DNA of 64,000 nucleotides from Chitinophaga pendula (GTDB lineage Bacteria > Bacteroidota > Bacteroidia > Chitinophagales > Chitinophagaceae): the NCBI RefSeq assembly GCF_020386615.1, contig NZ_CP077769.1, positions 310,001 to 374,000 on the forward strand, read 5' to 3'. Positions 11,889 to 49,410 of this stretch are shown here, piece after piece. How positions within the stretch are numbered: the stretch's first letter is position 1; the number at the start of each line of letters is the position of its first letter. The notes under the pieces were generated by a model. It was given only the letters and a program-made list of their open reading frames with translations. It did no database searches and was not told where the DNA came from. The position numbers and the translations under genes are program-made.

Positions 11889-11890
11889 GC

Positions 11891-13888: not shown

Positions 13889-13893
13889 ACAAA

Positions 13894-14481: not shown

Positions 14482-14486
14482 AACAG

Positions 14487-15120: not shown

Positions 15121-15165
15121 TGCATACCTGATTGTATTCACACTACTTAAATTAAACACGAGAAT

Positions 15166-16134: not shown

Positions 16135-16155
16135 CCCATAGGGAGGTTGAATTGT

Positions 16156-16185
16156 AATAGCCGGGGAAACCCGGCCTATTTCTTT
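16156..16185 (+). terminator. Intrinsic terminator after the major capsid gene
   Basis: A GC-rich stem (GCCGGG / CCCGGC) closed by a GAAA tetraloop and extended by A-T pairs beyond a one-base bulge, followed by TCTTT. Confidence 0.7.
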
Positions 16186-16202
16186 GTACAAAAAACAAGC
16201 AT

Positions 16203-32367: not shown

Positions 32368-34686
32368 ATGCAAGCCAATATCCCTTTTATGCGCATTATA
32401 TGCTATACCTGCTTATGCTTACTATATTGTTTTTTTATTCCTGCGTCTTTATGTGGACAAAAAATGACAGTGCTGGAAGGGCAGATAGTGGCTATGGAAG
32501 ACGGAGGCCCCATCCCCGGGGCGATTATAAGCGTGCACAATGGCGGTATTCATAGCATGAGTAATCAGGAGGGAAGATTTATTTTAAAGATCCCTGCTAT
32601 GAATACAAACGATAGTATATATGTGCGAATGCTCGGATACCAACCACAATGTTTTACGCCGGCTATATTGTATCAACAAGGCAACAGGATATTGTTACAA
32701 CAGCAGCCACTACAATTAAAAGGGATATCCATATCAGCAATCAATCCTTTGTCGTTAATTCAAAAGGCGATACAACGGATTCCGGAAAACTACTATGGTC
32801 GTCCTCATGTAATGAAAGGATTCTACCGGTTATCAGCCCGCAAAGCTTGGGACTATATCCATATTTCAGAAGCCGCGTTCGATCTGTACTGTCCGGATCT
32901 TAGTGGACGTCACAGGCTATTTCGGCTCACGCGGGCGAGGATGGAAAAAGACTTGTCTCCTTTCCACGGGGTAAGTAATATCGTATTTGGCGTTAAACCC
33001 GAAAATGTGTTTGAATATGATGTGACAGCCAATATTAATGAGTCAGATGTGCTGAGTAAACAAGGGCTGAAAGACCACCGGTTTTCATTAAACGGATTGG
33101 TAGTATACAATGGCCGGCAGGCATATGAACTGATATTTGATCAACGGGAAGGGCTACGTAAATCCAGATACCAGGGCAAAATATATCTGGACAAGGAAAC
33201 ACTGGCCATTCTTTCATTACAGTATTGGTTAAGTCCCAGCGGCATTCATTATTGGGAGGTTAAAAGCCTTTCCCAAAGAGCATTAATGAAACTATTGGAT
33301 ATGTATGAAACTGTACTACAAGACACAGTACAGATACATTACAGGCAGTATGGTGAAAAATATTTTTTAAGCCATGTATCTAATCGCTCATTAATACGTT
33401 TGCATAGTGGAAGAGTACATTTTGATTTTAATTGTCCGGTAGATATGCAATATATAACTACACAAATTGATACGGTGGCGGTTAAACCTTTTGCTGATAA
33501 AGAACTGTTGGGCCACAATCGATACATAGAACACCAGGGAGAAGAAAATAGTGGGATGTTTTGGAAAGATCTGAATCTGATGCCGGCAGATTACGACGTG
33601 GATTCAGTTGCTGCTGCCATACATAGCCGGAATGATATTTCCCAATACAGGCGTATGCTGGAGAATATTATACGAAAGCAATCGAAACAGCCGGTATCTC
33701 GAATAGATACTATCCTGTCATTTTACCATCGTAAGGGATTGTTTGATGGGGCCGCTCTTATTCAACATAAAGGACAAACAATTTATCAACACGCTTTCGG
33801 ATGGGCCGACCGCAGCAGGCAATCCGCCAATAAGTTAAATACAAAGTTCAGAATAGGCTCTATTACCAAACAATTTACAGCTATGCTCATCCTCCAGCTA
33901 CAACAGGAAGGTCGCTTACAATTGGAGGATAGTGTGGGTAAATATCTCCCGGACTATATACATAAAAATATAACCATCGCACAATTGTTAACTCATCAAT
34001 CAGGTATCCCTAATTGTACGTTAAATACAGATTACCTTTCTCAGCTACTCTTACATCCATTTAGCAATTCGGAACTGGTCACCCGCTTTTGTAGCGATAG
34101 CCTTGAGTTTACCAGTGGCCAGCATTTTCGTTACAGCAATGCCGGTTACATGGTGTTGTCGGAGATAATTGAACGCGTTACCGGGAAAAAATATGCGGAT
34201 GTGCTGACGGAAAAAATATTCGGACCTTTGAATATGCTTTATTCTCATGCCGGTGTTGTAGATGCTGAAGATACTTTGATGGCTACCGGATATGAAGGAT
34301 CAGTGCCTGAAACCAAATATCCGCTGCTTAATATGGCAGGAGCAGGTGCAATCATATCCAATGCAACAGATCTATTAATATGGGAGCAGGCGCTGCATAG
34401 CGATAAGCTATTACCACTTAGAGAAATAAACCAGATGTTCCAACCTCATGCGCATTACAAAGACTGGAATGCAGATTACGGTTACGGATGGATGATAGAT
34501 AAAGGTATGTTTAAAGTGTCAGATAAACATGTAATACAATATCATCCGGGTACAGATATGGGATGCTATAGTATGATATTGAGGCAGCCGGATGAAGGCA
34601 TTGTAATCATTTTATTGAGCAATAGTGGCGATTTTCCGCGGTTTGACATGGCCGATCTGATACTACAGCAACTAAACAGCAAATAA
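32368..34686 (+). CDS. Fusion of regulatory-domain exported protein and class C beta-lactamase-like serine hydrolase
   Basis: 772 residues; signal peptide within 1-30 (ATG 32389 is an alternative start). Residues ~33-115 form a carboxypeptidase-regulatory-like domain (VLEGQIVAMEDGGPIPGAII). Residues ~120-400 form a beta-rich domain of a kind found in Bacteroidota outer-membrane proteins. From ~440 a serine hydrolase carries SITK (Ser 498, Lys 501), YSN in FRYSNAGYMV and an HPGTDMG site. Such enzymes act as peptidases or esterases, or are penicillin-binding-like. Joining these modules in one chain is unusual. A sensing or surface role is inference. Confidence 0.7.
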   Translation: MQANIPFMRIICYTCLCLLYCFFIPASLCGQKMTVLEGQIVAMEDGGPIPGAIISVHNGGIHSMSNQEGRFILKIPAMNTNDSIYVRMLGYQPQCFTPAILYQQGNRILLQQQPLQLKGISISAINPLSLIQKAIQRIPENYYGRPHVMKGFYRLSARKAWDYIHISEAAFDLYCPDLSGRHRLFRLTRARMEKDLSPFHGVSNIVFGVKPENVFEYDVTANINESDVLSKQGLKDHRFSLNGLVVYNGRQAYELIFDQREGLRKSRYQGKIYLDKETLAILSLQYWLSPSGIHYWEVKSLSQRALMKLLDMYETVLQDTVQIHYRQYGEKYFLSHVSNRSLIRLHSGRVHFDFNCPVDMQYITTQIDTVAVKPFADKELLGHNRYIEHQGEENSGMFWKDLNLMPADYDVDSVAAAIHSRNDISQYRRMLENIIRKQSKQPVSRIDTILSFYHRKGLFDGAALIQHKGQTIYQHAFGWADRSRQSANKLNTKFRIGSITKQFTAMLILQLQQEGRLQLEDSVGKYLPDYIHKNITIAQLLTHQSGIPNCTLNTDYLSQLLLHPFSNSELVTRFCSDSLEFTSGQHFRYSNAGYMVLSEIIERVTGKKYADVLTEKIFGPLNMLYSHAGVVDAEDTLMATGYEGSVPETKYPLLNMAGAGAIISNATDLLIWEQALHSDKLLPLREINQMFQPHAHYKDWNADYGYGWMIDKGMFKVSDKHVIQYHPGTDMGCYSMILRQPDEGIVIILLSNSGDFPRFDMADLILQQLNSK

Positions 34687-35185
34687 GAGATGAACGGATA
34701 AGTTCGCTGAAATGATACTAATTAGTATAGGCCAACTAGTTATATTTGTCAAATAAATTTATAACAGTTGTACTGCAAAATATTTTCCGCCGATTTAGAT
34801 TTCTTAGTATATTAGATTATTATTTTATTATTATGTTTTGTGTGGCTATATAATGTCGGCGCACAGGAATAACCCAGGTGAAGGACCAGTGAAGTATTAT
34901 TAAACTATGCTAACATCGAAGTCTTGTGACTTGAAATAGCGAAGCTATATCTAATCAAATCTACCCAAACCCCGGATACTACCTGAAAAACTTGTTTTGC
35001 GTTTGTTTACTCTGCGTGCACATTATCATCTTGTTGCTGGATGAATAGAAGTGTTTCATAACTGTAAATCCCATCATCTTGTATCAGGCCCAGCCGGGAT
35101 CTGCTAACTACCTCTTTTTTAAGACTTATTGCTTAACTGATAACTGATTTTAAGTAATTAGTTGATATTTTAATTTATTAAACCT
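34687..35185. other. Intergenic region upstream of the biosynthetic cluster
   Basis: About 500 bases with no gene. It must hold the promoter for the co-directional eight-gene cluster. The clearest -7-like match is TATATTTG at 34741-34748, 440 bases before the first ATG; no matching -33 TTG was seen. The end of the region (around 35140-35185) is very AT-rich. Nothing resembling a riboswitch stood out by eye. Confidence 0.4.
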
Positions 35186-37639
35186 ATGCATGTGTCTTCA
35201 GATTTTACCCGAAGCAACGCGGATGCCATTGCGTTATTTTTTGACTACCAGGAGCGAATAGTCAATTTAATTGCTTCCCAACCCCTCACGCCACATACTG
35301 CAGATTTACTTCGCGCTATTTTAGATACCGGTGAAAGAGTATTTACACTATATCTAAAGGCCAATGAATTATTAAGGGAACAATTGCTACAACAAACTGA
35401 TAAAAGTACAGGTGTCCTTATTTCAGCTACAACTGGAGAAATTTCCTCACATAACAAATCGGAATCCAGTACCCCTCCAGTTTTTCCAGTTATACAATCC
35501 TGGTTACAGTCGCGTATTGCAGCGTTGCTAGGTATAGATGCAGAACTGATTACTACAGATGCAGATTGGGAGAGCGATCTGGGCCTGGACTCAATACGTT
35601 TGGCTACTATATGGCGACAACTGTGTGAAAACTTTCCTCAGTATCAGCTACGACATGATGCAATTTATAATAACCGTACCATCGCACAATTAGTGGCGTA
35701 CCTGGAAGAAATACCAGCAACCACTGAGAACGGAAAAGAAGCGCCGGATGCTGGTATAACCGTAGCCAGCGGGATAACAACAGATGCCGAAAAATGGCTG
35801 ATCAATACACTGTCAGTGATGACAGGTGTACCCGCAACGATCATTACGGCCGATACCTTACTGGAGTCGGAACTCGGTATGGACTCTCTGCGGTTAGTAG
35901 AGCTACAGCTGCAATTTGAACGGCAATTTCCGGCTATAAAGAAAGGAAAGGAACGGATATTTCATTTCAGCACAGTAAAAGAATTGGTGGAGCAGCTACC
36001 AGCGATACCTATTCCGGCGATACCGGAAAAAATGATGAAGATAGATGATGGTATACCTAAGCTGTCGCAGCATAGTAGCAATGGTATTGTAAAGGAAGAA
36101 CCGGTAATACGTTCACTCTTACACGCGGGCATCCAGCAGATCAATGTTGCCGGAGGATTACCCGCAGAGGAGATATTATTGGTCGGAGATAAGTCCCGTA
36201 CACAAATGTGGGGACAATATCTACGGCAAGTCACCCGTGTAAAGATGCTGGTAACTGGCAGGAAAAAATGGAAATATAACAGCAAAGAATACACTATGGA
36301 TAATGAAGGAAGTGCACTCTCTTTATTATCTGATTTGGAGCCTGGCCGGTCCCCGCTCATTATTTTCCTGGCTAACACATCCGCTGGAAAGAAGACAAAA
36401 ATGCATAGCTCCGGTATTACCTTACTAAAATTTGCCCAGCTGTTGGACAAAGGATCATTGCCGGAACAAAGCGAATTGAACATCAGTATCGTGATAGAAG
36501 GGAATGAACGCCTTTCACAGATAGCTGCGAGGGGTGTTGCCAAAACACTGTCGAAAGAATGGATACATAGCTCCGTTCGCACAGTAGACATGCAGTCCGC
36601 TATTACACATTGGTCTCCGGCGGAGCTACTACAGCTGCTGCAATACGCCCCGGTATCCCATGATCTGGTATTACACAACGCCGGTCTATACAAGACACTG
36701 AATAAAGCGGTGACAACTGATGAGGCAGTCAGCCGGCAGGAGCTGCTAAGCAGGACAATAGGGCCCGGTCAGGTGATCTTATTACTGGGAGGCGCGTGCG
36801 GAATAACGGCTGCTTTGACAAGAGCACTATCTGTCACCTACCCCTGCCATTTTGTATGTGTCGGAAGAACAGCCTTACCCTCAGAAGATCCCCTCCCGGG
36901 AGAAGATGCAGCTGCATTAACGATACAAGAGCTGCTACAACGGATGGGCACCAGCGAAACAGATATCTCTCATCTGCAAAAACGCCTGAAACTGTTACGC
37001 AGACAACAGGCCATTTTTAGAACTCGTCAGGCCGTAATTGCCAACGGAGCGAAATTTCACTATCTGCAGGCAGATACTTCTTCACAGGCAGATATGAAGA
37101 AAATACTGACATACTGCAAGCGATTAGGACCTTTGGCTGGTGTCGTACATGGTACAGGTTTTTTCCAAGATGCCAGGATACCCCACAAAACCACTGCCGA
37201 TTTCAAAACTGTGTTTAATGCGAAGGTGTCGACGGCCAGGCACCTGTATAAACAGCTACAGACATTTCCAGATTTACAGTTTGTATGTTTCATGAGCAGC
37301 ATTGCAGCAGTATATGGCAACGCCGGACAAGCTGATTATGTCGCTGCTAATGATTGGCTGAATGAACTGGCTTCGCAATGGAATAAAGAAGTAACCTATC
37401 CGGTAAAATCCCTATTATGGGGAATATGGTCGGAAACAGGCTTTGCCAGGGACAAACAGGGTGGACTTCGAATGTTGACAGAACACGGGGTCCAGGGGAT
37501 CAGCAATCAGGCAGGTGCGGCCGCGTTCTTACGCGAACTGTATAGTGGTACAAAAGAGGCTGCCAATATCTTGTTGACTACTCCTTCCTGTCAGGAATTC
37601 CTGGCTGCCGCTCCGGCTGCTGCCTTGTGCAGCAATTGA
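35186..37639 (+). CDS. Polyketide/fatty-acid synthase subunit: ACP-ACP-ketoreductase
   Basis: 817 residues. Residues 1-95 are helical (docking-like). ACP1 at ~97-178 has the phosphopantetheine Ser in DLGLDSIRL (Ser 136); ACP2 at ~197-275 has it in ELGMDSLRL (Ser 234). The KR spans ~300-800: structural half at ~300-500, nucleotide-binding GGACGIT (535-541), and catalytic residues in FMSSIAAVYG (Ser 704/705), QADYVAAND (Tyr 718, Asn 722) and Lys in FNAKVSTARHL. All needed residues are present, so reductase and carrier functions are plausible. It is the first gene of the cluster and supplies carriers to the ketosynthase encoded next. It resembles the ACP-KR end of PUFA-type synthases, but product and family are open. 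Confidence 0.85.
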   Translation: MHVSSDFTRSNADAIALFFDYQERIVNLIASQPLTPHTADLLRAILDTGERVFTLYLKANELLREQLLQQTDKSTGVLISATTGEISSHNKSESSTPPVFPVIQSWLQSRIAALLGIDAELITTDADWESDLGLDSIRLATIWRQLCENFPQYQLRHDAIYNNRTIAQLVAYLEEIPATTENGKEAPDAGITVASGITTDAEKWLINTLSVMTGVPATIITADTLLESELGMDSLRLVELQLQFERQFPAIKKGKERIFHFSTVKELVEQLPAIPIPAIPEKMMKIDDGIPKLSQHSSNGIVKEEPVIRSLLHAGIQQINVAGGLPAEEILLVGDKSRTQMWGQYLRQVTRVKMLVTGRKKWKYNSKEYTMDNEGSALSLLSDLEPGRSPLIIFLANTSAGKKTKMHSSGITLLKFAQLLDKGSLPEQSELNISIVIEGNERLSQIAARGVAKTLSKEWIHSSVRTVDMQSAITHWSPAELLQLLQYAPVSHDLVLHNAGLYKTLNKAVTTDEAVSRQELLSRTIGPGQVILLLGGACGITAALTRALSVTYPCHFVCVGRTALPSEDPLPGEDAAALTIQELLQRMGTSETDISHLQKRLKLLRRQQAIFRTRQAVIANGAKFHYLQADTSSQADMKKILTYCKRLGPLAGVVHGTGFFQDARIPHKTTADFKTVFNAKVSTARHLYKQLQTFPDLQFVCFMSSIAAVYGNAGQADYVAANDWLNELASQWNKEVTYPVKSLLWGIWSETGFARDKQGGLRMLTEHGVQGISNQAGAAAFLRELYSGTKEAANILLTTPSCQEFLAAAPAAALCSN

Positions 37640-37683
37640 CCTCTCTGGCAGCACATCCTTTACACATTCACACTCCGATATCA

Positions 37684-40600
37684 ATGTTTACAGATCCTAT
37701 AGTTATTACAGCCATGGAAGGTATATTTCCTGGTGCTGCTGATATAGCTGCCTTTTGGGAACTTATCCTGCAGGCCAAACAATTGGAACCTGCCTCACTT
37801 CGTGCAATGTGGGAAAAAGACCCCGCACTTTATCTGCCAGATCATGGACAGGATAGTAAAGATGTCTTCCTTGATAGCGCATTTCTGGTAGATGAACATC
37901 CGCTATTTGCATATAATGATCCCAATCGGCAGGAGAAAGCGGGGCGTTATATTTGTGAACTGCTGCAACACCAGATACCGGTAGCGGCAAGGGCACAAAC
38001 AGGTTTGGTGTTAGGTGCGCAATGGCCACCTAATAGCTATCTGGAACAGGATAGTAGTGATCACTTACAACAATACGGAGTAACATCAGTATATAGGCGA
38101 TCTCCTGTCTATAGTATTGATGAACAGGCAGCTTTTATCGGTGCCGGATTGGGAGGTCCTCATATATCCGTTGATGTGGCGTGCGCCTCTTCCCTGTATG
38201 CCATTGCCCAGGCAATGGCCATGCTGCAGAGTGGACAGGTGACCCATGCCGTGGTGATAGGACTGAATATGTCTATATCGTTGCCTGTTTTCTCCATATT
38301 TTCTCATCTAGGTGCATTGGACAAAAGAGGACACGTCCGCAGTTATATGCAGGACGCAGGTGGTACATTCCTGGGAGAATCAGTAGCAGGCATTGTCATG
38401 GAGCGTGAGCAGACAGCTGTAGCCCGTAAAGCGAATATACTGGGGAGGATCTGCGGACTAGGACTTTCATCTGATGGCGCAGAACGTTCTGTATTTACGC
38501 CAGGGCCTAAAGGTCAACAGTTGATGTTTGAACGGGCCTATCAGCATATTGATGGGGCCCCCGACTATCTGGAGGGCCATGGTACCGGTACACTTGCTGG
38601 TGATAAAGCTGAATTGGAAGCTATGCGCCATTTCTTCGGCCCACGATTGCCAGCCGGAAAACAAATACGACTGGGCAGTATTAAAAGCCTGGTTGGCCAT
38701 ACGCTGGCAGCAGCAGGTATGGTAGCTGTTATTAAAGCATTACTTATCATCCAGCACCGGCAATTACCTCCGCACCTGGCGGGTACACTTCATCCATTGC
38801 TAAATGAAGGTTGTCTGTCATTGAGGGAAGAAAGTACAGCAATAGCAGGATCTCAACCGGCAGTACGGGTCGGTATCTCGGCGATGGGTATCGGAGGAGG
38901 GAATGCACATCTGGTATTGGAGACGGCCGTCTCTTCACCTGCCGGAAGTCACTCATTGCCTGATCGCTTCACTTTTGCATTACAGGATATGGCATGGCAA
39001 TACGGAAATGTTGGCGATCACCAAATGCCTGCCATACCGGATCGACGTCAGCAGTTCCCGGATACGCTCGATATTGCAACAAAAGGATTACGTTCCGGAC
39101 CCAATTTTTTGAAGAACATCTCCGCCTTTCAATTGCTGGCTTTAGATAAAGCACATCAGCTGTTTGATAGGCATCCGGTATTGGCAAATGCTGACAACAC
39201 GGCTATGCTTATACATACCAACGATGGTAACCATAAATTTCTGCAGCTAAACCAACGTGCATCGCTGTTGTACGATCAGCATCAGATAATGCCCATAGCA
39301 GACAGACAAAAACTGGCTACAGAAACGTTGCCGCCAATTGATAATGATGTCATTGTATCCGCATTGCCTTCTATGTGTGCAGGTTATCCAGCCTGGCATA
39401 TGAATACACGTGGCGGTTATATGACAAGTTCCGGTGCCATGAAAACGTTTTATTCCAGTTTGCTGAATGGCCTTTTATTATCCCGCTACCAAAAGGGCCA
39501 ACTGCTGGCCGGAGCCGGCGTGTACGATGATCATCGCTATGCAGACGAATATGTTTGCTGGTTTTTGTTTGACACAAATGACAGATTATATTCCGCATCG
39601 ACTATATTGCTGCACTATTTTCCGCATCAATCACCTGATATAGCCGTCCGGAAAATGAACTGGCCCGCCCACCAGGTATCTATATCTTCTGATGCATTGC
39701 CTACCGACTTGCTACACTTTGCCTATGGTGATGACCAGTACCTGGCCATCCCTCTGGCCGATGGTACCTTGTTACTTGAACAGCAGCATGCAATGAAACC
39801 GCTTTCCATATCTAAACCCCAGCGTCCTATGTCCATCCATTTTAATCAGAGAAAGCCGGTCTCTGTTAACTCGCTTCCGGCTCGCCATTCCCTCTTGCAG
39901 GAGATATTGCTTGCAGAAAAGATGGTGACAGCACAGTTTAAACGCCTGCAACAAAAGGTACAGTCATTGTTAATCCGACCTGCAAGCGACAATACAGCGA
40001 CAAATGCAGACCCGGTAATCAGTAGCGTATCCCTGAAAGAGCAACGTGCCACCGCTATACTGCAGGTAAATGAAGAACATCCTTATTTTTTTGACCACCC
40101 ATTAGATCATGTCCCGGGTATCTTATTGCTCGAAGGCACGAGTCAATTAATCGACCAGCAACTACAACAATATCCGCCGGATACCGGCGCGGTAGGCTCA
40201 CATTATATCAACCGCCTCGATATGCGGTTTACACGTTTGTGTCATTGCAACCGTCCTGCAGAGATTGTAATACGCCCTCAGGCCGGCCGTGCCTATGAAG
40301 GCAGGATATGGCAGGATGAGAAAGTAGTGGCAACAATCAATATGGAGTGCAGTGCTGCAGCTGATACGCCCCTGCAATCAGCTATACAACCCGTGTACAA
40401 TACACCGCCCGCGCATTGGTTACACAAACATCGGGAAGAAAATATATTGGTAAGTGAACTTATACCTTTACCCGGTAATAGCTGGTCTTGCTACGTGAAG
40501 CCACCGGCCGCTACACATTTTTTTAATGATGGACATCCCCGGTGGTATAGTCCATGCTTTGTACTCGAGGTATGCCGGCAATTTTTTATGTTGCTTTCCC

Positions 40601-40833
40601 ATCAGCAATATGACATTCCTGTAACACAGCCGATGTATTTGCTGGATATCAACTTCCAGCTGGAACAACCACTATACAGAGAGCAGGTAATAGAACTGAG
40701 ACATACTTTAGTTACAGACCGTAATGCAGGAAATATATCACATCTACAGGCAGATATCTATGTCAATGATCAACGTATAGGACAGTTTAGTACGCACTCG
40801 CTCATATTGGAAAAACAATCTGCTATCCTTTAA
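37684..40833 (+). CDS. Ketosynthase - degenerate KS-like segment - tandem AfsA-type hotdog fusion
   Basis: 1049 residues from ATG 37684; GTG 37627 would overlap the upstream gene. The KS (1-~415) has Cys 167 (VDVACASS), His 299 (EGHGTGT) and His 339 (SLVGHT), so it should condense. Residues ~475-620 look like a shortened second KS: the usual active-site strand becomes RGGYMTSSGAMKTFY without Cys, as in chain-length factors. Residues ~785-900 contain FFDHPLDHVPGILLLE and ~940-1045 a second copy (FFNDGHPRWYSPCFVLE): these match the AfsA/ScbA A-factor hotdog repeats. AfsA joins a beta-ketoacyl chain to dihydroxyacetone phosphate; here the fusion could do likewise or dehydrate. This is inference from family knowledge. 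Confidence 0.8.
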   Translation: MFTDPIVITAMEGIFPGAADIAAFWELILQAKQLEPASLRAMWEKDPALYLPDHGQDSKDVFLDSAFLVDEHPLFAYNDPNRQEKAGRYICELLQHQIPVAARAQTGLVLGAQWPPNSYLEQDSSDHLQQYGVTSVYRRSPVYSIDEQAAFIGAGLGGPHISVDVACASSLYAIAQAMAMLQSGQVTHAVVIGLNMSISLPVFSIFSHLGALDKRGHVRSYMQDAGGTFLGESVAGIVMEREQTAVARKANILGRICGLGLSSDGAERSVFTPGPKGQQLMFERAYQHIDGAPDYLEGHGTGTLAGDKAELEAMRHFFGPRLPAGKQIRLGSIKSLVGHTLAAAGMVAVIKALLIIQHRQLPPHLAGTLHPLLNEGCLSLREESTAIAGSQPAVRVGISAMGIGGGNAHLVLETAVSSPAGSHSLPDRFTFALQDMAWQYGNVGDHQMPAIPDRRQQFPDTLDIATKGLRSGPNFLKNISAFQLLALDKAHQLFDRHPVLANADNTAMLIHTNDGNHKFLQLNQRASLLYDQHQIMPIADRQKLATETLPPIDNDVIVSALPSMCAGYPAWHMNTRGGYMTSSGAMKTFYSSLLNGLLLSRYQKGQLLAGAGVYDDHRYADEYVCWFLFDTNDRLYSASTILLHYFPHQSPDIAVRKMNWPAHQVSISSDALPTDLLHFAYGDDQYLAIPLADGTLLLEQQHAMKPLSISKPQRPMSIHFNQRKPVSVNSLPARHSLLQEILLAEKMVTAQFKRLQQKVQSLLIRPASDNTATNADPVISSVSLKEQRATAILQVNEEHPYFFDHPLDHVPGILLLEGTSQLIDQQLQQYPPDTGAVGSHYINRLDMRFTRLCHCNRPAEIVIRPQAGRAYEGRIWQDEKVVATINMECSAAADTPLQSAIQPVYNTPPAHWLHKHREENILVSELIPLPGNSWSCYVKPPAATHFFNDGHPRWYSPCFVLEVCRQFFMLLSHQQYDIPVTQPMYLLDINFQLEQPLYREQVIELRHTLVTDRNAGNISHLQADIYVNDQRIGQFSTHSLILEKQSAIL

Positions 40834-40871
40834 CATATCATCACTTTGTTCAACACCCTTAATCATTAAAA

Positions 40872-41516
40872 ATGAAAAAGATCTTTGCTGCAATGCCGCT
40901 AATACTCACTATTATTGGCGGTGGCCTCATACTATTCTTTGCGGGACGTCTGATCTGGCAATTGCCCGATATTCCCCGTCAGGTTATCGCAGGAGCTACC
41001 TTGTTATTATATTTCTATTGGCTACGTTGGGAAAGCCATATTTCAGTAGGCGAACTCAAAAAGAGTACAGAGCATAAGGACTATCACACCATGGAACTGG
41101 CAGCAGTTGCAAAACTTACCACGTTAGGCGCTGCTTTCCTGGGGGGGACAGTCGTACATCTTTACCTCGCGCTGCCTGGTATCGCTGTAATGTGGTGGGG
41201 GATACGCCTGCGGCAATATGCAGTTATCGCATTGGGTAATCAATACAGTCATCGTTTACGCATCCCCGAACAGGGTATTATAGAAGAAGGCCCCTACAAC
41301 AGTATACGCCATCCGGCTTATTTAGGCACTTTCATCGCTCATATAGGATTTGTAATGGTCTATTTCAATAAATGGTCTGTATTGTCAGTATTTATCCTTT
41401 GGGGAGCAGCAGTACTGATCCGCACAATACTGGAAGACCGCATGTTGATGGAGCTACCCGAATATCGCTTATACGCACAGCGTGTGAAATATAAACTCTT
41501 TCGCTCCATTTGGTAA
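40872..41516 (+). CDS. Isoprenylcysteine-methyltransferase-like membrane enzyme 1
   Basis: 214 residues with four to five membrane helices (LILTIIGGGLILFFAGRL; VIAGATLLLYFYWL; LGAAFLGGTVVHLYLA; VFILWGAAVLIRTI). The C-terminal half carries the ICMT/PEMT signature ALGNQYSHRLR...GIIEEGPYNSIRHPAYLG with the conserved RHP, and ILEDRMLMELPEYRLYAQR. The family transfers methyl groups from S-adenosylmethionine to carboxyl, amino or phenolic acceptors at the membrane. It follows the ketosynthase gene by 38 bases and is followed by a paralogue. Confidence 0.75.
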   Translation: MKKIFAAMPLILTIIGGGLILFFAGRLIWQLPDIPRQVIAGATLLLYFYWLRWESHISVGELKKSTEHKDYHTMELAAVAKLTTLGAAFLGGTVVHLYLALPGIAVMWWGIRLRQYAVIALGNQYSHRLRIPEQGIIEEGPYNSIRHPAYLGTFIAHIGFVMVYFNKWSVLSVFILWGAAVLIRTILEDRMLMELPEYRLYAQRVKYKLFRSIW

Positions 41517-41568
41517 GTTATCCCGTATATCACCACTGGTATGTTAACCACTTATAAACACGATCACT

Positions 41569-42225
41569 ATGCAAACCTTCCGTAATCAGATCCCTCGTAT
41601 TCTTTCATTATCCTTCATTACCGTTGTTATCGGCATTACCATCTATAAGGTAAGAGTATTGGAAACGGTCGCATCACCACTTATTCCCTTTTTACTGCTT
41701 TTTATCGGTAGTTATCTATTGTGGATACTACTGGAATTTAAAACTGCCAAGTCTGAAACACAAAAAGGTACCCGCACAGCTGATTTTGGCACCTGTGAAG
41801 TATACGCACTCGGTCGCATGCTGACATTGTTGTCGGGCCTGCTTTTCTACGATGAATGGTCAGAATTGACACCCCGACACATTATTGCGTTCGCACTGTT
41901 CATTGCCGGTTTTAGTTTTCGTTTATATGCTATTCATACATTAGGACGATACTATTCTCATATCGTCAGAAAGGTGGAAGGCCATCGTATCATTTCAAGT
42001 GGCCCTTATCGCTTACTACGCCACCCGGCCTATACCGGGATGATATTGGCGAATCTCGGCGTAACCTTGTTCTTCCTTAACCCGATAACCGTTTGTATCT
42101 ACGCAGGGGTACTGATCCCGGCTATCATTATACGCATCCGCATTGAAGAACGTACCCTTTATGAGATCGATGGCTATGAAAACTACGCCAGGCATCGCAA
42201 ACGTATTATTCCCTTTATCTGGTAA
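41569..42225 (+). CDS. Isoprenylcysteine-methyltransferase-like membrane enzyme 2
   Basis: 218 residues, paralogous to the preceding gene. Helices: ILSLSFITVVIGITIY, LIPFLLLFIGSYLLWILL, HIIAFALFIAGFSFRL, MILANLGVTLFFLNPIT. The signature TLGRYYSHIVRKVEGHRIIS plus SGPYRLLRHPAYTGM and RIEERTLYEIDGYENYARH is present. The two enzymes match in order of motifs but differ clearly in sequence, so they may act on different positions or as a heteromer. It lies two bases upstream of the SDR gene. Confidence 0.75.
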   Translation: MQTFRNQIPRILSLSFITVVIGITIYKVRVLETVASPLIPFLLLFIGSYLLWILLEFKTAKSETQKGTRTADFGTCEVYALGRMLTLLSGLLFYDEWSELTPRHIIAFALFIAGFSFRLYAIHTLGRYYSHIVRKVEGHRIISSGPYRLLRHPAYTGMILANLGVTLFFLNPITVCIYAGVLIPAIIIRIRIEERTLYEIDGYENYARHRKRIIPFIW

Positions 42226-42227
42226 CT

Positions 42228-43214
42228 ATGAATATCGTATTAACAGGCGGAAGCGGATTTGTCGGTAGTGCATTACTCAGACAGGCAGCAAACCATGGCG
42301 GAATAAGCATGAAGGTATTGGTCCGTCAACCACTGACTATATCTTATCCTTTTGTAGAAGAAGTAAAAGGAGATCTTTTTCATATACCATCCCATTTATG
42401 GTTCGACGAACCCTATGTGCTGGTGCATTATGCAACCAAGCAGGTGGATAAGGATGGAAGCGGATTTGAATATAATAATGTACGTGGTACCAGACAACTG
42501 TTGGCCAGCATGCAGGGCAACTGTATCGGAGCTATCTACGGCAGCTCCATGTCCGTATATGGCGATGGCATACAGTATATGGTCAAAGATAGCTGCCCAT
42601 TGCGTCCCGAAACCCCATTGGCAAAAAGCCGGGCTGCGGCAGAACAACTTATTCACGAAGCAATGAAAGAAAAAGCGCGCCATAGCTTCACCCTTCGTCC
42701 TAGGTTTATTATAGGTGAAGGAGATCGGTATACAATGAAGGTAATGATGCAGCTGGCGAATAATGGCATTCAGATTAACCATGGAAAACAACGGTTTAAC
42801 CTGATAGATGTTGAGGACTATGCCCGTATTATTTTGTCACTGTGCGGGCATATAAAAAGCGGAAATGTAGAATTGCAACAACGGCCTTTACATATCGGTT
42901 ATCAGCAACCGATCAGCTATAACGAATGGATGCGAACTATCGCTATAGTTACACAGTGTGATTGGCCCCGTAAACGTTGGTATGCACCGGCCGCACTGAT
43001 CCGTTTATTACATTATTTCCCATTCGGCCGTATTCCACAATTTGTTACCAAAGCGGGTTTACTAGGATTGGAACATTCAGCGGATACAAAACCATTGTAT
43101 GACCTCGCAAGTGCTGTTATCAGGAAGACCGCAATTACTGCAGTACACGATGCCTGTCGTGCAATTTATACCCTAAAAAAAGAATATAATGAAACACATA
43201 ATCAGTATCAATGA
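42228..43214 (+). CDS. Extended SDR (NAD-dependent epimerase/dehydratase fold) without catalytic Tyr-Lys
   Basis: 328 residues. Rossmann start VLTGGSGFVGSALL and family segments VLVHYATKQVDKDGSGFEYN, IYGSSMSVYG and FIIGEGDRYT identify an extended SDR. The usual Tyr-x-x-x-Lys site (Y-G-x-S-K) reads PLAKSRAAAE: Tyr is Leu and Lys is Arg. The protein may therefore bind NAD(P) without normal oxidoreductase chemistry, or use another residue. Role in the cluster unknown. The last 26 bases overlap the dikinase gene. Confidence 0.75.
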   Translation: MNIVLTGGSGFVGSALLRQAANHGGISMKVLVRQPLTISYPFVEEVKGDLFHIPSHLWFDEPYVLVHYATKQVDKDGSGFEYNNVRGTRQLLASMQGNCIGAIYGSSMSVYGDGIQYMVKDSCPLRPETPLAKSRAAAEQLIHEAMKEKARHSFTLRPRFIIGEGDRYTMKVMMQLANNGIQINHGKQRFNLIDVEDYARIILSLCGHIKSGNVELQQRPLHIGYQQPISYNEWMRTIAIVTQCDWPRKRWYAPAALIRLLHYFPFGRIPQFVTKAGLLGLEHSADTKPLYDLASAVIRKTAITAVHDACRAIYTLKKEYNETHNQYQ

Positions 43215-45954
43215 TCTGCCAACGAATGCAGAAACCGGTAGTAAATTCTCCAGGCAGGCAGTAATGGCAAAACGCGACATTCAGGTGCCTCCCTTTTTCT
43301 GCATCAGTAAAGCAGTGTATACAGCCTGTACAGCAGCTATACGTAGCTCGATCCGGTATATTACAGATCGTATCGACTTCCGGCAACAGGCATCCATTAT
43401 ATCGGCATCCGAAGCGATAGGTCTGCTATTTGACGAACTGACCATACCTGAAAAGGAAGCACAGCAGATATACGAAGCCTTTGACCGTATGCATGGAAAG
43501 GACGCAATGGTATCTGTACGTGCCTCTACAGTAAGCGACCGTGCCGGCCAAAGCGAGGACTCAGCTACCAACGCATTTGCAGGAATGAGTAGCTCCTTCC
43601 TCTATGTAAAACGCGAACATTTGCTAGATAAGGTTAAACTGTGCTGGGTATCAGGATTTTCAACAGAATCATTGATCTACAGGCATGCCCAGAGCTTCGA
43701 CGTAATGGACTTTGCAGTGGCAGTAGGTGTACAACGTATGATCTTCGGACAACGCTCCTTCGTAATGTTTAGCTGCCATCCGGAGACAGCTGCCAAAGAT
43801 GTGCTGATAGCCGGCGCTCATGGTATAGGAGAGGGTGTAGTACAAGAAGCTGTACCGATAGATCATTACCATATAAGACAAATGGACCAGGTGATCACTT
43901 CGCATGTCGTAAATAAAACAGAACAGCTAACCTTTGACGCGGAACAAGGATATGGTGTGAAGAGAATACCTGTACCGTTCGCATTTCGTGAGCAGCCGGT
44001 ATTTTCAGATGAGGTTCTGTTGGAATTAGCAACGCTTGCCCGCCGGATAGAAGGCATTTTTGCTGCACCGCAGGACATAGAAGGTACCATAGATGAACAA
44101 GGGCAGATATGGATATTGCAATCCCGGCCGATCGTATTTAACTACGACCGCCAACTGATCTGGACGAACGCCAATGTCACAGAAAGTTTTCCTGGCGTAA
44201 CAACAGCATTGACCTACAGTTTTTCAAAATACTTTTACCGGGTCATATTTTTTGATGCCTATTTGCGTATAGGCGTACCATACAAGCGTATACACGACAA
44301 TTTTGAAATGCTGGATAGAATGATAGGATTTCTAAAGGGCCGCGTGTATTATTGTTTAACACATTTTTACTTGCTGCACCGGCAAACTCCTATGTTCCCG
44401 CTATTGGCCAAAGACTGGGAAAAGATGATGGGATTCAGTGCATCTTACCATACACGTGGAGATGGGCTATCTGCATGGGGCCGTAAGATAAAAACAAAGC
44501 TAACCTACTATATTGTGCTGTTCCGCAATCTGCTGCAGGTCGTTAATCACCAGCGGAATATGCTTAAGTTCCACCATTGGTGGGAAAAGTTGATCAGTCC
44601 CTTGAGAGGAAAAGATTTCCGGCTAACCGATCCGCTGGAGCAAGCACAATTGTTCCATCGTGTCTGGAAAGAGGTAGGGGAGCAATGGGGAATCACCCTG
44701 ATGAATGATACCTACCTGCCTATTCTTAATGGAATAGTTAACCGGGCTTTTGATAAGGCCGGGTTGACCACTCGCTATCCTGGCTTACTAAGCGAATTAC
44801 TATGTGGGGGTGGCCGCCTTCGTAGCGTTGATATCATGCTTTCTGCGGTGGCACTGGGAGAGTATATACGAAATAATAAAGCGCTGGCCGCTCATTTCAA
44901 CGCTGTACAGGATGCACATACCCTTTGGGGAGAGATCGAGCGGGAAGAACTGGATGGAGAATTCTGTCGTCGTTTTAAACACCATTTGCATTATAACGGA
45001 GATCGTGGCCTGCAGGAGTTAAAAGTAGAACAACCATCGCTGCGGGATACACCCTGGGAGCTAGTGAAGATCGTGAAACAATATGCGGTACAACAGGTAT
45101 CAGAGGCGACTGTCCGGGCCACCGAACAGCAGACCCGCGACCAGGCGGTAGCGGTATTAAAAAACGCTTTGAAAGGTAAACCCGTCCGTTATCACTACTT
45201 ATTGCTGATTACAGGATGGTTGCGGGGACTAATCAGGAATAGAGAAAATTCCAGGTATTGCCGCTCGGAACTGTTCGGCTTCAGCAAAAATATCTTCAAC
45301 GCCTTGGGCCATTATTTTGTAAAGGAGGGTATCCTGCGTAGTGCTGACGATGTGTATCACCTGGCAAAAGATGAGATATTCGGCTATATTGATGGCACCG
45401 GTTATACGGAAGACTTGCAATCGCTGGCGGATATACGCAGAAAGGAATTTACGGCTAATACACAGTGTCAGACACCGGAACAGATCACCACGATGGGACC
45501 TGTACGCCAGAACAGTCTCGCGAAAGAAGTCAGAGAACAACAAGGTGGCAGTAATGAACTCAAAGGACTACCCTCCGCTGCAGGCCGGGTCACGGGGATC
45601 GCCAGGGTAATAACACACCCTACCACGGTAGAACAGATACATCAGCATGAAATATTGATTGCAAGAGAAACCGATCCTGGTTGGCTATTCCTGATGATGT
45701 CGGCTAGGGGAATCATCGCCGAAAAGGGCTCTATGCTCTCTCATACCGCTATTACTGGGCGGAAATTTAATATTCCTACCATCGTATCCGTAAAAGAAGT
45801 GACCACCCGTATCCAGGACGGAGCATTGATAGAGATGGATGGCGCCACCGGCATTATCCGGATACTAAGGGAAAAAGCCATACAAGAAGACTATGATACA
45901 CTGAAAACCGGACAACGGAGCGCTGTTATATTGCAGGAAGAAGCAACAGTTTAA
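43189..45954 (+). CDS. PEP-synthase/rifampicin-phosphotransferase-like dikinase
   Basis: 921 residues in the order seen in rifampicin phosphotransferase: an ATP-binding PPDK-N-type domain (~1-320: VSVRASTVSDR, AGAHGIGEGVVQEAV, DIEGTIDEQG with ILQSRPI), a ~440-residue middle domain that in Rph binds the acceptor, and a C-terminal swivelling domain with ARETDPGW and GSMLSHTAITGR, whose His 852 is the expected phosphohistidine. The enzymes split ATP into AMP and phosphate and phosphorylate a small acceptor via this His. In this cluster the acceptor could be the product or a building block. The ATP-domain FAG motif is atypical (FAGMSSSFLYV). Confidence 0.8.
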   Translation: MKHIISINDLPTNAETGSKFSRQAVMAKRDIQVPPFFCISKAVYTACTAAIRSSIRYITDRIDFRQQASIISASEAIGLLFDELTIPEKEAQQIYEAFDRMHGKDAMVSVRASTVSDRAGQSEDSATNAFAGMSSSFLYVKREHLLDKVKLCWVSGFSTESLIYRHAQSFDVMDFAVAVGVQRMIFGQRSFVMFSCHPETAAKDVLIAGAHGIGEGVVQEAVPIDHYHIRQMDQVITSHVVNKTEQLTFDAEQGYGVKRIPVPFAFREQPVFSDEVLLELATLARRIEGIFAAPQDIEGTIDEQGQIWILQSRPIVFNYDRQLIWTNANVTESFPGVTTALTYSFSKYFYRVIFFDAYLRIGVPYKRIHDNFEMLDRMIGFLKGRVYYCLTHFYLLHRQTPMFPLLAKDWEKMMGFSASYHTRGDGLSAWGRKIKTKLTYYIVLFRNLLQVVNHQRNMLKFHHWWEKLISPLRGKDFRLTDPLEQAQLFHRVWKEVGEQWGITLMNDTYLPILNGIVNRAFDKAGLTTRYPGLLSELLCGGGRLRSVDIMLSAVALGEYIRNNKALAAHFNAVQDAHTLWGEIEREELDGEFCRRFKHHLHYNGDRGLQELKVEQPSLRDTPWELVKIVKQYAVQQVSEATVRATEQQTRDQAVAVLKNALKGKPVRYHYLLLITGWLRGLIRNRENSRYCRSELFGFSKNIFNALGHYFVKEGILRSADDVYHLAKDEIFGYIDGTGYTEDLQSLADIRRKEFTANTQCQTPEQITTMGPVRQNSLAKEVREQQGGSNELKGLPSAAGRVTGIARVITHPTTVEQIHQHEILIARETDPGWLFLMMSARGIIAEKGSMLSHTAITGRKFNIPTIVSVKEVTTRIQDGALIEMDGATGIIRILREKAIQEDYDTLKTGQRSAVILQEEATV

Positions 45955-46017
45955 CAGACATGCTGGAAAAATGAAGGGATTATGTAATTTTATATATTAA
46001 CCGATGTAACCAGTTAC

Positions 46018-46533
46018 ATGATCCGATTCAGTACCAAAATAGTCAATGATCACTCCAATTTCGGCTGGAATTATATTAACATTCCTGCCGAAATTGCTCA
46101 ACAGCTTAACCCTGGTAATAGGCGCGCATTTCGCGCCAGCGGCCATATAGATAGACATCCGGTTCACTGTATCACCTTGCTACCTTTGGGAAACGGAGAT
46201 TTTATGATCCCTTTAAACAATGCGATCCGTAAAGGCACCGGCAGAAAGTCTTTAGGCGCTACCCTGCAACTATCCTTAACTTTAGATGCTGAACCGGTCG
46301 CCGTTTATTCCGCAGAATTAATGCAATGCCTGGATGATGAGCCGGAGGCACTACGCTTTTTTGAATCCTTATCCTGGTCGAACCGTAACTTTTTTGGTAA
46401 ATGGATAGAAGAGGCTAAAACAGCGCCTACCAAAGCAAATCGCATCGCCCAGACAATAGAAGCATTATCAAGAAAACAGAATTTCAACCAAATGGTGGTA
46501 GCCAGGCATGAACGGCGCCGGCGTGATCAGTAG
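46018..46533 (+). CDS. YdeI/OmpD-associated (bacteriocin-protection type) protein
   Basis: 171 residues. The N-terminal ~95 residues (WNYINIPAEIAQQLNPGNRR, PLGNGDFMIPLNNAIRKGTG) fit DUF1905. The C-terminal ~70 (FFESLSWSNRNFFGKWIEEA, KANRIAQTIEALSRKQNF) fit the OmdA/YdeI 'bacteriocin-protection' domain. The biochemical role is unknown, but members have been linked to tolerance of membrane-active peptides. In a biosynthetic cluster it could contribute to self-protection; that is inference. It starts 63 bases after the dikinase gene. Confidence 0.7.
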   Translation: MIRFSTKIVNDHSNFGWNYINIPAEIAQQLNPGNRRAFRASGHIDRHPVHCITLLPLGNGDFMIPLNNAIRKGTGRKSLGATLQLSLTLDAEPVAVYSAELMQCLDDEPEALRFFESLSWSNRNFFGKWIEEAKTAPTKANRIAQTIEALSRKQNFNQMVVARHERRRRDQ

Positions 46534-46629
46534 AACTATCCTTTTCATGATGTGTGTTTCAGACAACGGAAACCTATCCAATGTTATCTGATCTTATCTA
46601 CGTTAACTAATTATAATATTGAGTAAAAT

Positions 46630-47544
46630 ATGAAATCCCTTTCCCACAACTATTTCAGTCGACTGCTGCTATTCCAGCAAAAGTCATATGCCCCGGTTAT
46701 ACACCTTTTGTTCGCCATTTTTTGGTTTACCGCTTTGAAAACGGCTACATTGCTGGTAGTTAACAAACCTATCAGTAGCATATGGCTATGGCAGGATATG
46801 CTGGTCATACTGAGTATGTACCTCACCTTATTCCACCTGCGCATAGCAGATGAGATAAAGGACTACGATTACGATAAGGTACATAACCCGGATCGCCCCT
46901 TAGTGCAACGACTGGTCAGCCCACGGGACCTTGGTAGCTACATGATCGTATTGGCAGTAATAACCGCCAGCATCAACTTATATTTGCAACAGATGTTAGG
47001 GTTGATCATCCTGGCCGATTTCGTATATGGATACTTGCTGATATTTATAGAGAAAAGATGGCCTAAACTGGCTGATAACATTTATATCAACCTGCTCATT
47101 ACCTATCCGGTAAATATCCTGTTGAGCGTTTACATTACCTTTTATACATATCAGCAGTACCAGATCAACTGGCGTGATACCTATTGGTTCTCAGTAGGTG
47201 GATTTGCGCTGGGTTTTCTGTTCTATGAATTTGCCAGGAAGACCCGTTGGCCGGAATTGGCCAAAGAAAGTGCCCGTATTTACTCACGGGAACTTGGAGG
47301 AGTAGCCACCGCCATGCTCACCCTTTTATTTGGACTGCTCGCCCCCGTTGTTGTTATGATAGGTGTTATCAGTAGCCGCTCTTTCCATCCCTTGTTACTG
47401 CTAATGTATGTCTGCTGGATACCGGCCATATATGGCGTTTCCCAGTTTCTGCGCCAACGGAATGGAGAACCCATCAAACATGGGCTCTGGTACCTGGGAT
47501 TGTTCTATGGCAGCCTCATCGTATTACAATGCCTCTTACTCTGA
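46630..47544 (+). CDS. UbiA-family membrane prenyltransferase
   Basis: 304 residues with about eight membrane helices. The Asp-rich segment LRIADEIKDYDYDKVHNPDR (about 70-90) matches the first prenyl-diphosphate-binding motif of UbiA-like enzymes; the second site lies near FYEFARKTRWPELAKESARI. Such enzymes transfer prenyl chains or other lipid-like groups to aromatic or polyhydroxy acceptors within the membrane. As the last gene of the cluster it points to a lipid-anchored or prenylated product. It ends 5 bases from a convergent nitrilase gene. Confidence 0.8.
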   Translation: MKSLSHNYFSRLLLFQQKSYAPVIHLLFAIFWFTALKTATLLVVNKPISSIWLWQDMLVILSMYLTLFHLRIADEIKDYDYDKVHNPDRPLVQRLVSPRDLGSYMIVLAVITASINLYLQQMLGLIILADFVYGYLLIFIEKRWPKLADNIYINLLITYPVNILLSVYITFYTYQQYQINWRDTYWFSVGGFALGFLFYEFARKTRWPELAKESARIYSRELGGVATAMLTLLFGLLAPVVVMIGVISSRSFHPLLLLMYVCWIPAIYGVSQFLRQRNGEPIKHGLWYLGLFYGSLIVLQCLLL

Positions 47545-47549
47545 GGTAA

Positions 47550-48503
47550 CTATTTTACTGAATGTAACCAGGCTACATTTTGCTCGGCAACATTCGGCTG
47601 GCCAATTATATCACGGTATAATGCTGGTCTTCTGGCTTTTCTGTAACGGAAACCTCCTGCTTTGATAAGTTTATCGGCCGTAATAGTAGCAATAGCAATG
47701 TCATTATCCAGCAATCTGCATTCCGCTACAATATCCCCGAATGGATCCAGTATCATCGAGCAACCATTTTTGAGCTGATCATCATCCATACCGATAGGAT
47801 TGGAAAAGACAGCATAGATAGCATTGTCATATGCACGTGCCGGCAACCATTTCATCAACCAAGCCCTGCCTTTAAGACCCTCAAATTCCTGCCGGAGTGA
47901 AGTGGGATCATTCTCCCGGTTATACCATAATGCAGGATCTACAAAGCCGGCTCCCGGCCTGGTTGAGGGCGTACACATGGTTACATGTGGCATGAAAATG
48001 ATATCTGCGCCAAGAAGGGCAGTGGCTCTGACATTTTCAATGATATTATTATCGTAACAGATCAGGATACCACATTTCCAGCCATATAAATCAAAAACAA
48101 CGTAGGCATCTCCAGGTGTAAGATGTGGATTAATAAAAGGATGCAGCTTACGGTACTTAGCGACTAACCCACCTTTGTCCACTGCGATGTAGGCTTTATA
48201 AAGCCGTTCCTCACTGTCTTTTTCAAAAAGCCCGGCCAGGATCGTCATATTATAGGTAGCTGCAATAGCTGTTAACTGCCTGATACTGTCACCCTCCGGA
48301 ATGTATTCTGCCAGGTCGGATAGCTGCTGTCTGGATAAATGCCTGGCAAACGTATACCCCGTTACCGAACATTCATGAAAGGCTATTATATTTGCCCCTT
48401 GAGCTGCAGCTCGAGCAGTCAGATCAGCAATGACAGACAGGTTGTACTGTTTGTCGCCACTGCGGTTTTCAAATTGGGCCGTTGCAATCCTGATATTGTC
48501 CAT
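47550..48503 (-). CDS. Nitrilase-superfamily carbon-nitrogen hydrolase
   Basis: 317 residues. The Glu-Lys-Cys triad is visible: AFHECSVTGY (Glu), KYRKLHPFI (Lys) and GILICYDN (Cys), with DPFGDIVAECRL near the end. The family hydrolyses amides or nitriles, such as N-carbamoyl compounds. It is the last gene of a minus-strand run (amidohydrolase, AraC regulator, nitrilase) and converges on the prenyltransferase gene. Substrate unknown; whether it belongs to the biosynthetic cluster is unclear. Confidence 0.8.
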   Translation of the reverse strand: MDNIRIATAQFENRSGDKQYNLSVIADLTARAAAQGANIIAFHECSVTGYTFARHLSRQQLSDLAEYIPEGDSIRQLTAIAATYNMTILAGLFEKDSEERLYKAYIAVDKGGLVAKYRKLHPFINPHLTPGDAYVVFDLYGWKCGILICYDNNIIENVRATALLGADIIFMPHVTMCTPSTRPGAGFVDPALWYNRENDPTSLRQEFEGLKGRAWLMKWLPARAYDNAIYAVFSNPIGMDDDQLKNGCSMILDPFGDIVAECRLLDNDIAIATITADKLIKAGGFRYRKARRPALYRDIIGQPNVAEQNVAWLHSVK

Positions 48504-48575
48504 AGTAACTCGTTTTTATGACAAAATTACCTGGCAGTATTTAAGGGAAATTGTAAAAACGCGACAAGGTAACTC

Positions 48576-49391
48576 CTATGCGCAACCTGCTTGTAATTGT
48601 ACGAAGTTGACGGCCAGCGGCAGCGTATTAAAAAGATATTGCCGGGGAGTAATACCGACCATGCTCCTGAACTCCCGGATGAAATGTGATTGATCAAAGT
48701 AACCACATTCATATGCAATGCCGGTAATATTCTCTTTTGCAGATCTGTTACGTAATAAACGGAGGGAATGCTGCAGGCGAATAATATTGGTAAAGTGTTT
48801 GGGGGTAATACCCACTTTCTCTCTGAATAATCTCTCCAGGGATCGCTTATTGATACCCAACTGTTGACTTAGCTCTTCTACGGCTATATGCCCATGGTGA
48901 GCATATATAGTGGTGATCCCTCGTTGGATCATATGTTCTTGTCCGATATCGCCGGTAAGTTTATAGCGTAGAAAATCCTCTATAAATGCGATCTTTTGAT
49001 AAGCAGTTGTAGCTGTCAGTACCTTCTCCTCCAGTACGGTGGCGTCCTGCCCCCAGATATCACGTGTATCCACCCATTTACCTGACAACTCATAAGCAGG
49101 CATTCGTAATAGTGAATGCACGCCATAGGGCTGGAAAACAACAATAAGCAGCCCTATACCGCCGTTGGCAGTAAGGTGTCTGAATTGATTGACCTGACCA
49201 TACAGGAAACTTGTTGGTTGGGTAATAGTTGCGTTGTCCGAAATTTCCTGGTCAAAAGGAACGCCGAAATGGAAGGCCATTCCCGTATTCCCGTCAGGGA
49301 AAAAACAATGCCGGGCATGACTGTGCCCGCTCTCCAGCAGCAGAAAATGTTTGACCACATGGGCCAGATCAGGAGATGGCAATAGTTGCAT
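48576..49391 (-). CDS. AraC-family transcriptional regulator
   Basis: 271 residues from ATG 49391 (MQLLPSPDLAHVV); an upstream in-frame start would overlap the amidohydrolase gene. The N-terminal ~170 residues are a DUF6597-like sensing domain (FFPDGNTGMAFHFGVPFDQ). The C-terminal ~100 hold two helix-turn-helix motifs: VEELSQQLGINKRSLERLFR, then ITGIAYECGYFDQSHFIREF with MVGITPRQYL. AraC proteins usually activate neighbouring operons in response to a small molecule. It lies between an amidohydrolase and a nitrilase on the same strand and could also act on the cluster beyond. Confidence 0.85.
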   Translation of the reverse strand: MQLLPSPDLAHVVKHFLLLESGHSHARHCFFPDGNTGMAFHFGVPFDQEISDNATITQPTSFLYGQVNQFRHLTANGGIGLLIVVFQPYGVHSLLRMPAYELSGKWVDTRDIWGQDATVLEEKVLTATTAYQKIAFIEDFLRYKLTGDIGQEHMIQRGITTIYAHHGHIAVEELSQQLGINKRSLERLFREKVGITPKHFTNIIRLQHSLRLLRNRSAKENITGIAYECGYFDQSHFIREFRSMVGITPRQYLFNTLPLAVNFVQLQAGCA

Positions 49392-49410
49392 AGTATAAAG
49401 GTACAGTTTA

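Follow-up and report, generated by a model that had tools for sequence, protein, structure and literature searches.

A candidate butenolide-phosphate gene cluster of Chitinophaga pendula with a swapped AfsA didomain and a core shared across phyla

The C-terminal AfsA-like domain of the gladiostatin polyketide synthase (PKS), a phosphorylated butenolide synthase, condenses 3-ketothioesters with dihydroxyacetone phosphate (DHAP), according to the part of PMC7756379 at hand. The gladiofungin PKS ends in the same way; both are trans-acyltransferase glutarimide synthases, and the available portions of the literature mention no isoprenylcysteine carboxyl methyltransferase (ICMT), dikinase or UbiA protein for them. 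Here we describe an eight-gene cluster of Chitinophaga pendula in which an AfsA domain likewise follows a ketosynthase (KS). The window analysed is a stretch of 64,000 nucleotides (positions 310001-374000 of the 7.66 Mb single-contig genome), and all gene coordinates are window positions. The eight open reading frames (ORFs) lie on the + strand from 35186 to 47544, with intergenic gaps of -26 to +96 bases. As judged from sequence, the cluster is a real biosynthetic unit with a conserved core and a new version of AfsA-type butenolide-phosphate pathways. Its product is probably a lipidated, phosphate-bearing butenolide or butyrolactone, made via AfsA condensation with DHAP.

The ScbA/AfsA systems of Streptomyces share the AfsA fold and motifs with the window protein, and in Streptomyces sp. 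Mg1 a short-chain dehydrogenase/reductase (SDR) gene adjoins the ScbA gene, but the two hotdog halves of the domain stand in the opposite order. No ICMT, dikinase or UbiA is listed in three ScbA stretches (6-12 kb, with incomplete gene tables). In the salinipostin spt cluster, Spt9 is an AfsA homologue, and to our knowledge the natural route to phosphate triesters on a butyrolactone is not settled. Salinipostins are treated in PMC11095149, with no spt genes in the text at hand, while PMC12113709 and PMC10819033 do no more than cite the spt work. Cyclophostin, the cyclipostins and the salinipostins are bicyclic enol-phosphate butyrolactones, comparable through their product structure, a lactone with a phosphate triester; as far as the available part of PMC6681047 goes, cyclophostin bears a methoxy group, and the cyclipostins and salinipostins bear longer chains. 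In the excerpt of PMC8779670 at hand, UbiA and ICMT family genes occur together, as in the window, at a Gephyromycinifex alkylresorcinol cluster. That cluster differs in being based on a type III PKS, and the terms AfsA and butyrolactone are absent from the paper.

The AfsA part belongs to a protein of 1068 residues (37627..40833, + strand; ORF list and Pfam) made of a KS, a middle segment of about 350 residues and the AfsA didomain. The Pfam model PF03756 (AfsA) matches it in two stretches with 80.3 bits against a gathering score of 24, while the equivalog model NF041195 gives 95 bits, below its 200-bit cut-off. Alignment to a 290-position ScbA model revealed that the hotdog halves are swapped. 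The first half (39982..40356, +), which carries the motif DHPLDHVPG, is the counterpart of the second ScbA half (profile 184-289, E 1.1e-14), and the second half (40357..40830, +) that of the first (profile 3-140, E 2e-13). The DHxxDHxPG motif is intact and sits at residue 33 of 278, whereas three ScbA proteins have it at residue 220 of 330, 245 of 333 and 236 of 323; it lies at residue 151 of 258 in the AfsA of another locus, L031.

A search of genome contigs with the non-KS part of the KS-AfsA protein as a single query found one relative, at locus L036 of a metagenome-assembled genome (MAG) named 'Pseudomonadales bacterium'. There, genes for a synthase-AfsA protein, an ICMT, an SDR, a dikinase and a UbiA protein follow one another, and then come those for an MMPL protein and a member of the fatty-acid hydroxylase family. 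Identities to the window proteins by blastp are 48% over 900 residues for the dikinase, 39% for the ICMT, 35% for the SDR, 33% for the UbiA and 27% for the AfsA. The synthase has the layout AMP-ligase-ACP-KS-AT-ACP-TE-AfsA (ACP, acyl carrier protein; AT, acyltransferase; TE, thioesterase), and its AMP-ligase is presumably of the FAAL type. Within the order of this MAG, the dikinase was matched in six of 274 genomes at E<=1e-190, and five of the six, including L036, have AfsA-ICMT-SDR-dikinase-UbiA-MMPL in the same order, with identities to the window of 48-50% (dikinase), 35-39% (SDR), 32-37% (UbiA) and 39-40% (ICMT). The fatty-acid hydroxylase gene of L113 is on the opposite flank of the synthase. 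Of the other synthases of this order, two were scanned and show the L036 layout plus a dehydratase match, and no ketoreductase (KR) is matched in the scanned ones (three of the five), as expected for a beta-ketoacyl product. The sixth locus, L114, has no AfsA or ICMT match in the 12.7 kb seen; at 6698-12376 of this locus (genome G1138), two ORFs resembling dikinases stand back to back, one on each strand, and the stops in one match fall at its very end.

Searching 72,556 plasmids with the dikinase by tblastn gave 222 records, the best 16 all from Streptomyces clavuligerus (41% identity), followed by S. durmitorensis (35%). Plasmid pSCL4 of S. clavuligerus (L039; one annotated record) carries, in this order, genes for AfsA, ICMT, dikinase, a UbiA homologue annotated 'hypothetical protein' (28% identity, E 3e-27) and a zinc-type oxidoreductase, and p1 of S. 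durmitorensis (L038) carries AfsA, ICMT, nitroreductase, dikinase, P450 and other genes. Eight loci have a dikinase at least 34% identical to that of the window (the window itself, L036, L038, L039 and L110-L113), and AfsA adjoins ICMT in all eight. The minimal shared set is AfsA-ICMT-dikinase, with UbiA in seven loci and SDR in six, and the YdeI gene, the second ICMT gene and the ACP-ACP-KR protein fall outside the core. This conservation across phyla supports the core as a functional unit. It also agrees with the initial annotation, made from the sequence alone, which had read the eight genes at exactly the positions of the ORF list as a co-directional biosynthetic operon and had proposed looking for co-occurrence of KS-AfsA with ICMT and dikinase genes. 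Its description of the set as undescribed holds for all eight genes within our searches, and no paper describing this gene set was found among those with an open licence, though other phyla share the core.

Most of these relatives share the half swap. Against the ScbA model, the first and second halves match positions 186-287 and 4-156 in the L038 AfsA and 195-279 and 6-154 in the L036 AfsA, and the AfsA proteins of L110-L113 align with that of the window in the same half order. In the S. clavuligerus AfsA, the first half has no match to the model and the second matches 21-176. An AfsA encoded on a plasmid of Aliiroseovarius crassostreae (L101, 7935-8837) is also swapped; its neighbours are a trpA-like gene, an FAD oxidoreductase gene and transporter genes. 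Since no ICMT, dikinase or UbiA is among the genes listed beside it, the swap extends more widely than the cassette.

Upstream of the KS-AfsA gene, an ORF (35186..37639, +; ORF list and Pfam) encodes a protein of 817 residues with two ACPs, whose serines are S136 (GLDSI) and S234 (GMDSL), and a KR at residues 531-750, which by our reading keeps an SS...Y region. The KS has its catalytic motifs (Cys186 in VACASS, His318 in EGHGTG and His358 in KSLVGH), and an in-frame ATG at residue 20 of this protein may be the true start. Residues 441-790 (38947-39996) gave nothing in NCBIfam and chance-level matches in Pfam and the PDB. A chain-length factor or degenerate KS, suggested here by likeness to the eye, was rejected, as a KS-domain hidden Markov model (HMM) built from up to 31 segments found a short, unconvincing stretch with E 0.06. 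Structure prediction of residues 441-1068 from the single sequence reached a pLDDT of 35.7, too poor for a fold search.

Two ICMT-like methyltransferases follow, a diverged extra copy (40872..41516, +) and a copy nearer to the ICMTs of the conserved core (41569..42225, +). Both exceed the PF04140 threshold (50.2 and 71.6 bits against 24) and fall below that of the true-ICMT equivalog NF040696 (36 and 53 of 160 bits); no second ICMT copy was seen in the other cassettes. The dikinase is of the PEP-synthase type (43189..45954, +; PPDK_N and PEP-utilizers in Pfam). It comprises an ATP-binding domain (residues 17-317), a middle region of its own and a phosphohistidine domain (818-888) with His852 in SHTAITGR. 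Pfam scores of 189.5 bits for PPDK_N and 75 bits for the phosphohistidine domain place it in the family, and the phosphohistidine is kept in 8/8 aligned dikinases. The protein had been called 'Rph-like', a label that is not supported as a function: it lies below every NCBIfam equivalog cut-off (Rph, PigC, PEP synthase) among the matches listed for 25 of 27 families, the best being 512.6 of 883 bits. A precedent for phosphorylation of a small molecule is Cj1418, annotated as a PEP synthase, which is an L-glutamine kinase in the available part of PMC10971088.

The SDR between them (42228..43214, +; Pfam and alignment) is of the extended, Epimerase type, but has TPLAKSRAAAE in place of the canonical YxxxK dyad; PYGKSK of GalE aligns with PLAKSR. 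The Tyr and Lys are missing in 7/7 aligned SDRs, namely six cassette SDRs and that of Streptomyces sp. Mg1. The latter, encoded beside ScbA, is about 24% identical to the window SDR (E 6e-12 or 6e-15, depending on the direction), and the profile of the window family matches its sequence with an hhalign probability of 98.6%. Only weak matches to the window SDR come from the NAD(P)H-binding proteins encoded next to two further ScbA genes (L102, L103). BprA adjoins AfsA in A-factor biosynthesis, and we infer a butyrolactone-type reductase here.

The last gene (46630..47544, +) encodes a UbiA-type membrane transferase, assigned by profile comparison, as its 19.4 bits lie below the PF01040 gathering score of 34.2. 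Homology is supported by an hhalign probability of 99.2% to a six-member UbiA set, two scanned members of which exceed the Pfam cut-off. Pfam thus agrees with the domain names of the initial annotation for seven genes, and for the UbiA it is the profile comparison that backs the name. Against the PDB, a seven-member profile found digeranylgeranylglyceryl-phosphate (DGGGP) synthase (E 7e-6) and then, weakly, decaprenyl-phosphate phosphoribosyltransferase (E 0.03), and no others; both enzymes handle phosphate-bearing substrates. The first Asp motif, DExKDxxYDxxxNPDRPLV, is kept and is common to DGGGP synthase, whereas the second is replaced by E(F/I)xRK...YS in 7/7 sequences, unlike in UbiA prenyltransferases, which have both Asp-rich motifs. 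A structure predicted from two sequences had a pLDDT of 45.9, too poor for a fold search. The remaining gene (46018..46533, +; Pfam) encodes a YdeI/OmdA-DUF1905 protein; none of the other cassettes searched gave a match to it. Across 34600-48600, promoter-like sites number 40 compared with 30.9 (sd 6.4) in shuffles and terminator-like sites 17 compared with 12.4 (sd 3.6).

The domains suggest the following route. The KS, the two ACPs and the KR would build a beta-ketoacyl chain on ACP, perhaps beta-hydroxylated in part, with malonyl and starter units drawn from host fatty acid synthesis. The swapped didomain would then free the chain by converting the beta-ketoacyl thioester and DHAP to an acyl-butenolide phosphate, by homology with known AfsA proteins. 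In the initial annotation, AfsA was taken to link acyl chains with a C3 phosphate, a reading that the AfsA-like chemistry of gladiostatin supports, in the part of PMC7756379 available. The SDR, of the kind found beside ScbA, may reduce the butenolide. The dikinase would pass a phosphoryl group from ATP via its phosphohistidine to a small acceptor, activating the butenolide phosphate or a lipid partner. The UbiA protein, nearest to an enzyme that places lipid onto glycerol phosphate, could attach a lipid to the core with its phosphate, which the ICMT could methylate, perhaps on a phosphate oxygen. The earlier guess of a butenolide- or glycerol-linked, lipid-like product was a fair one, while no evidence was met for its quinol link.

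Several observations weigh against this route. The window synthase lacks an AT domain and carries a KR, which a simple beta-ketoacyl product would not need. Because the SDR lacks the canonical catalytic residues, its role as a reductase is an assumption. The SDR is also not constant: no SDR of the window type is among the genes listed for S. durmitorensis L038, and in S. clavuligerus the zinc-type oxidoreductase takes the place in which one might look for an SDR. UbiA was not found in S. durmitorensis, in a search of the plasmid only, and the S. clavuligerus AfsA has no DHxxDHxPG motif and no blastp match to the window AfsA. UbiA-dikinase pairs occur in lipid loci without AfsA (L052, L093), so the two proteins need not act on a butenolide, and the UbiA and ICMT genes beside the alkylresorcinol cluster mean that this pair alone does not point to a butenolide either.

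A more specific proposal, which we hold only tentatively, is that the cassette is a cross-phylum machinery for phosphotriester (enol-phosphate) butyrolactones, in which the DHAP phosphate would be kept, activated by the dikinase, closed onto the enol and then methylated by the ICMT or alkylated by the UbiA protein. A methyltransferase of the ICMT kind, a UbiA protein that transfers lipid and a dikinase would together suit a phosphotriester product well, and one of the cyclophostin/salinipostin type is plausible on this analysis. The order-conserved core narrows the candidates for phosphotriester formation to four tailoring enzymes and provides versions outside actinomycetes to study. If the phosphotriester proposal is true, the ICMT and UbiA families gain a new phosphate-ester chemistry. 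The core would also bring the signal-type chemistry of AfsA into the lineage of C. pendula and into a Pseudomonadales-type lineage, with the swapped hotdog didomain fused to two different synthase layouts.

The rival that survives best, though we consider it unlikely, is a membrane or phenolic lipid pathway, in which UbiA and dikinase form a general lipid module, the AfsA hotdog merely releases or processes an acyl chain and a structural or surface lipid is formed instead of a butenolide. The pair indeed lies beside HMG-CoA reductase and DUF3419 genes at L052 and beside genes for a protein of the fatty-acyl reductase type, diacylglycerol (DAG) kinase, phosphatidylserine (PS) decarboxylase and DUF3419 at L093, both loci being free of AfsA and ICMT matches. 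The L036 operon continues with its MMPL and fatty-acid hydroxylase family genes, DGGGP synthase is an ether-lipid enzyme, and in another bacterium UbiA and ICMT genes adjoin the alkylresorcinol cluster, in the excerpt of PMC8779670 available. However, AfsA adjoins ICMT in every one of the eight loci defined above, the SDR belongs to the type found next to ScbA, and the dikinases of AfsA-less loci share only about 26-32% identity with that of the window.

Still less probable is an ordinary A-factor-type gamma-butyrolactone signal, dephosphorylated and secreted, which the extra enzymes merely decorate. AfsA together with an SDR of the type beside ScbA fits such a signal, but the A-factor pathway is not known to need a dikinase or a UbiA, and neither is listed in the three short ScbA stretches. 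While ScbR-type genes are present at each of the three ScbA loci, no ScbR-type receptor was noticed near the cluster when the ORFs of 32-51 kb were read by eye (no HMM search), and a regulator close by, at 48576-49469, looks like AraC. We regard a PUFA-like or hydroxy-fatty-acid synthase, in which ACP2-KR and KS-hotdog would form a small machine like PfaA/PfaC and the AfsA didomain would be a dehydratase, as very improbable: the hotdog didomain does follow the KS within one protein and the KR region matches the PfaA model TIGR02813, but with 158 bits it is far under the cut-off of 1010, the hotdogs match AfsA/ScbA, residues 441-800 give no chain-length-factor signal (E 0.06) and the L036 core goes with a different synthase.

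Returning to the proposed butenolide-phosphate cluster, its genes are rare in the phylum of C. pendula. PF03756 occurs in 2/195 genomes of its family, the other copy being stand-alone; none of the ORFs in the 3.4 kb seen there is a cassette gene. The AfsA-containing part matched 2/395 genomes of the phylum, the other match being 59 residues inside a longer, unrelated-looking frame; this search is not very sensitive, given a single query and AfsA proteins only 27-31% identical across phyla. The dikinase was matched in 11/395 genomes at E<=1e-120, the ten others with at most 698 bits against 1613, and eight of these ten loci (G402 and G512 left out) show no AfsA or ICMT match. In the class of the L036 MAG, 7/369 genomes match at E<=1e-150, and the six besides the L036 genome itself (G633) have no AfsA or ICMT match, one of them on a contig of only 8 kb. 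In its phylum the only match among 229 genomes is again G633. Weaker dikinase copies may be missed, since at most two or three candidates were scored per genome. Among the 395 sampled genomes of the phylum, the cluster was seen only in C. pendula, which suggests horizontal gain. A nitrilase gene downstream is common in the genus (48/60 genomes at E<=1e-60); in the nitrilase neighbourhoods of six relatives, none of 26 other window genes tested matches at E<=1e-15, and no empty site is shown.

Among the AfsA-less dikinase loci, L052 (3303-13197; genome G923, class of the L036 MAG) reads HMG-CoA reductase-UbiA-dikinase-DUF3419-unknown-GNAT-AMP ligase, and similar gene sizes are seen in L094, L095 and L100. 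L093 (5738-14635; genome G385, phylum of C. pendula) reads fatty-acyl reductase type SDR-DAG kinase-UbiA-dikinase-unknown-PS decarboxylase-DUF3419 and looks like a phospholipid pathway. Elsewhere in the window, 5284-21659 is prophage-like, with 7/10 scanned proteins matching PHROGs (including terminase large subunit, head maturation protease, portal, tape measure and tail fibre). Upstream of the cluster, the gene at 32368-34686 encodes a fusion of a CarboxypepD-regulatory-like domain with a serine beta-lactamase-family domain.

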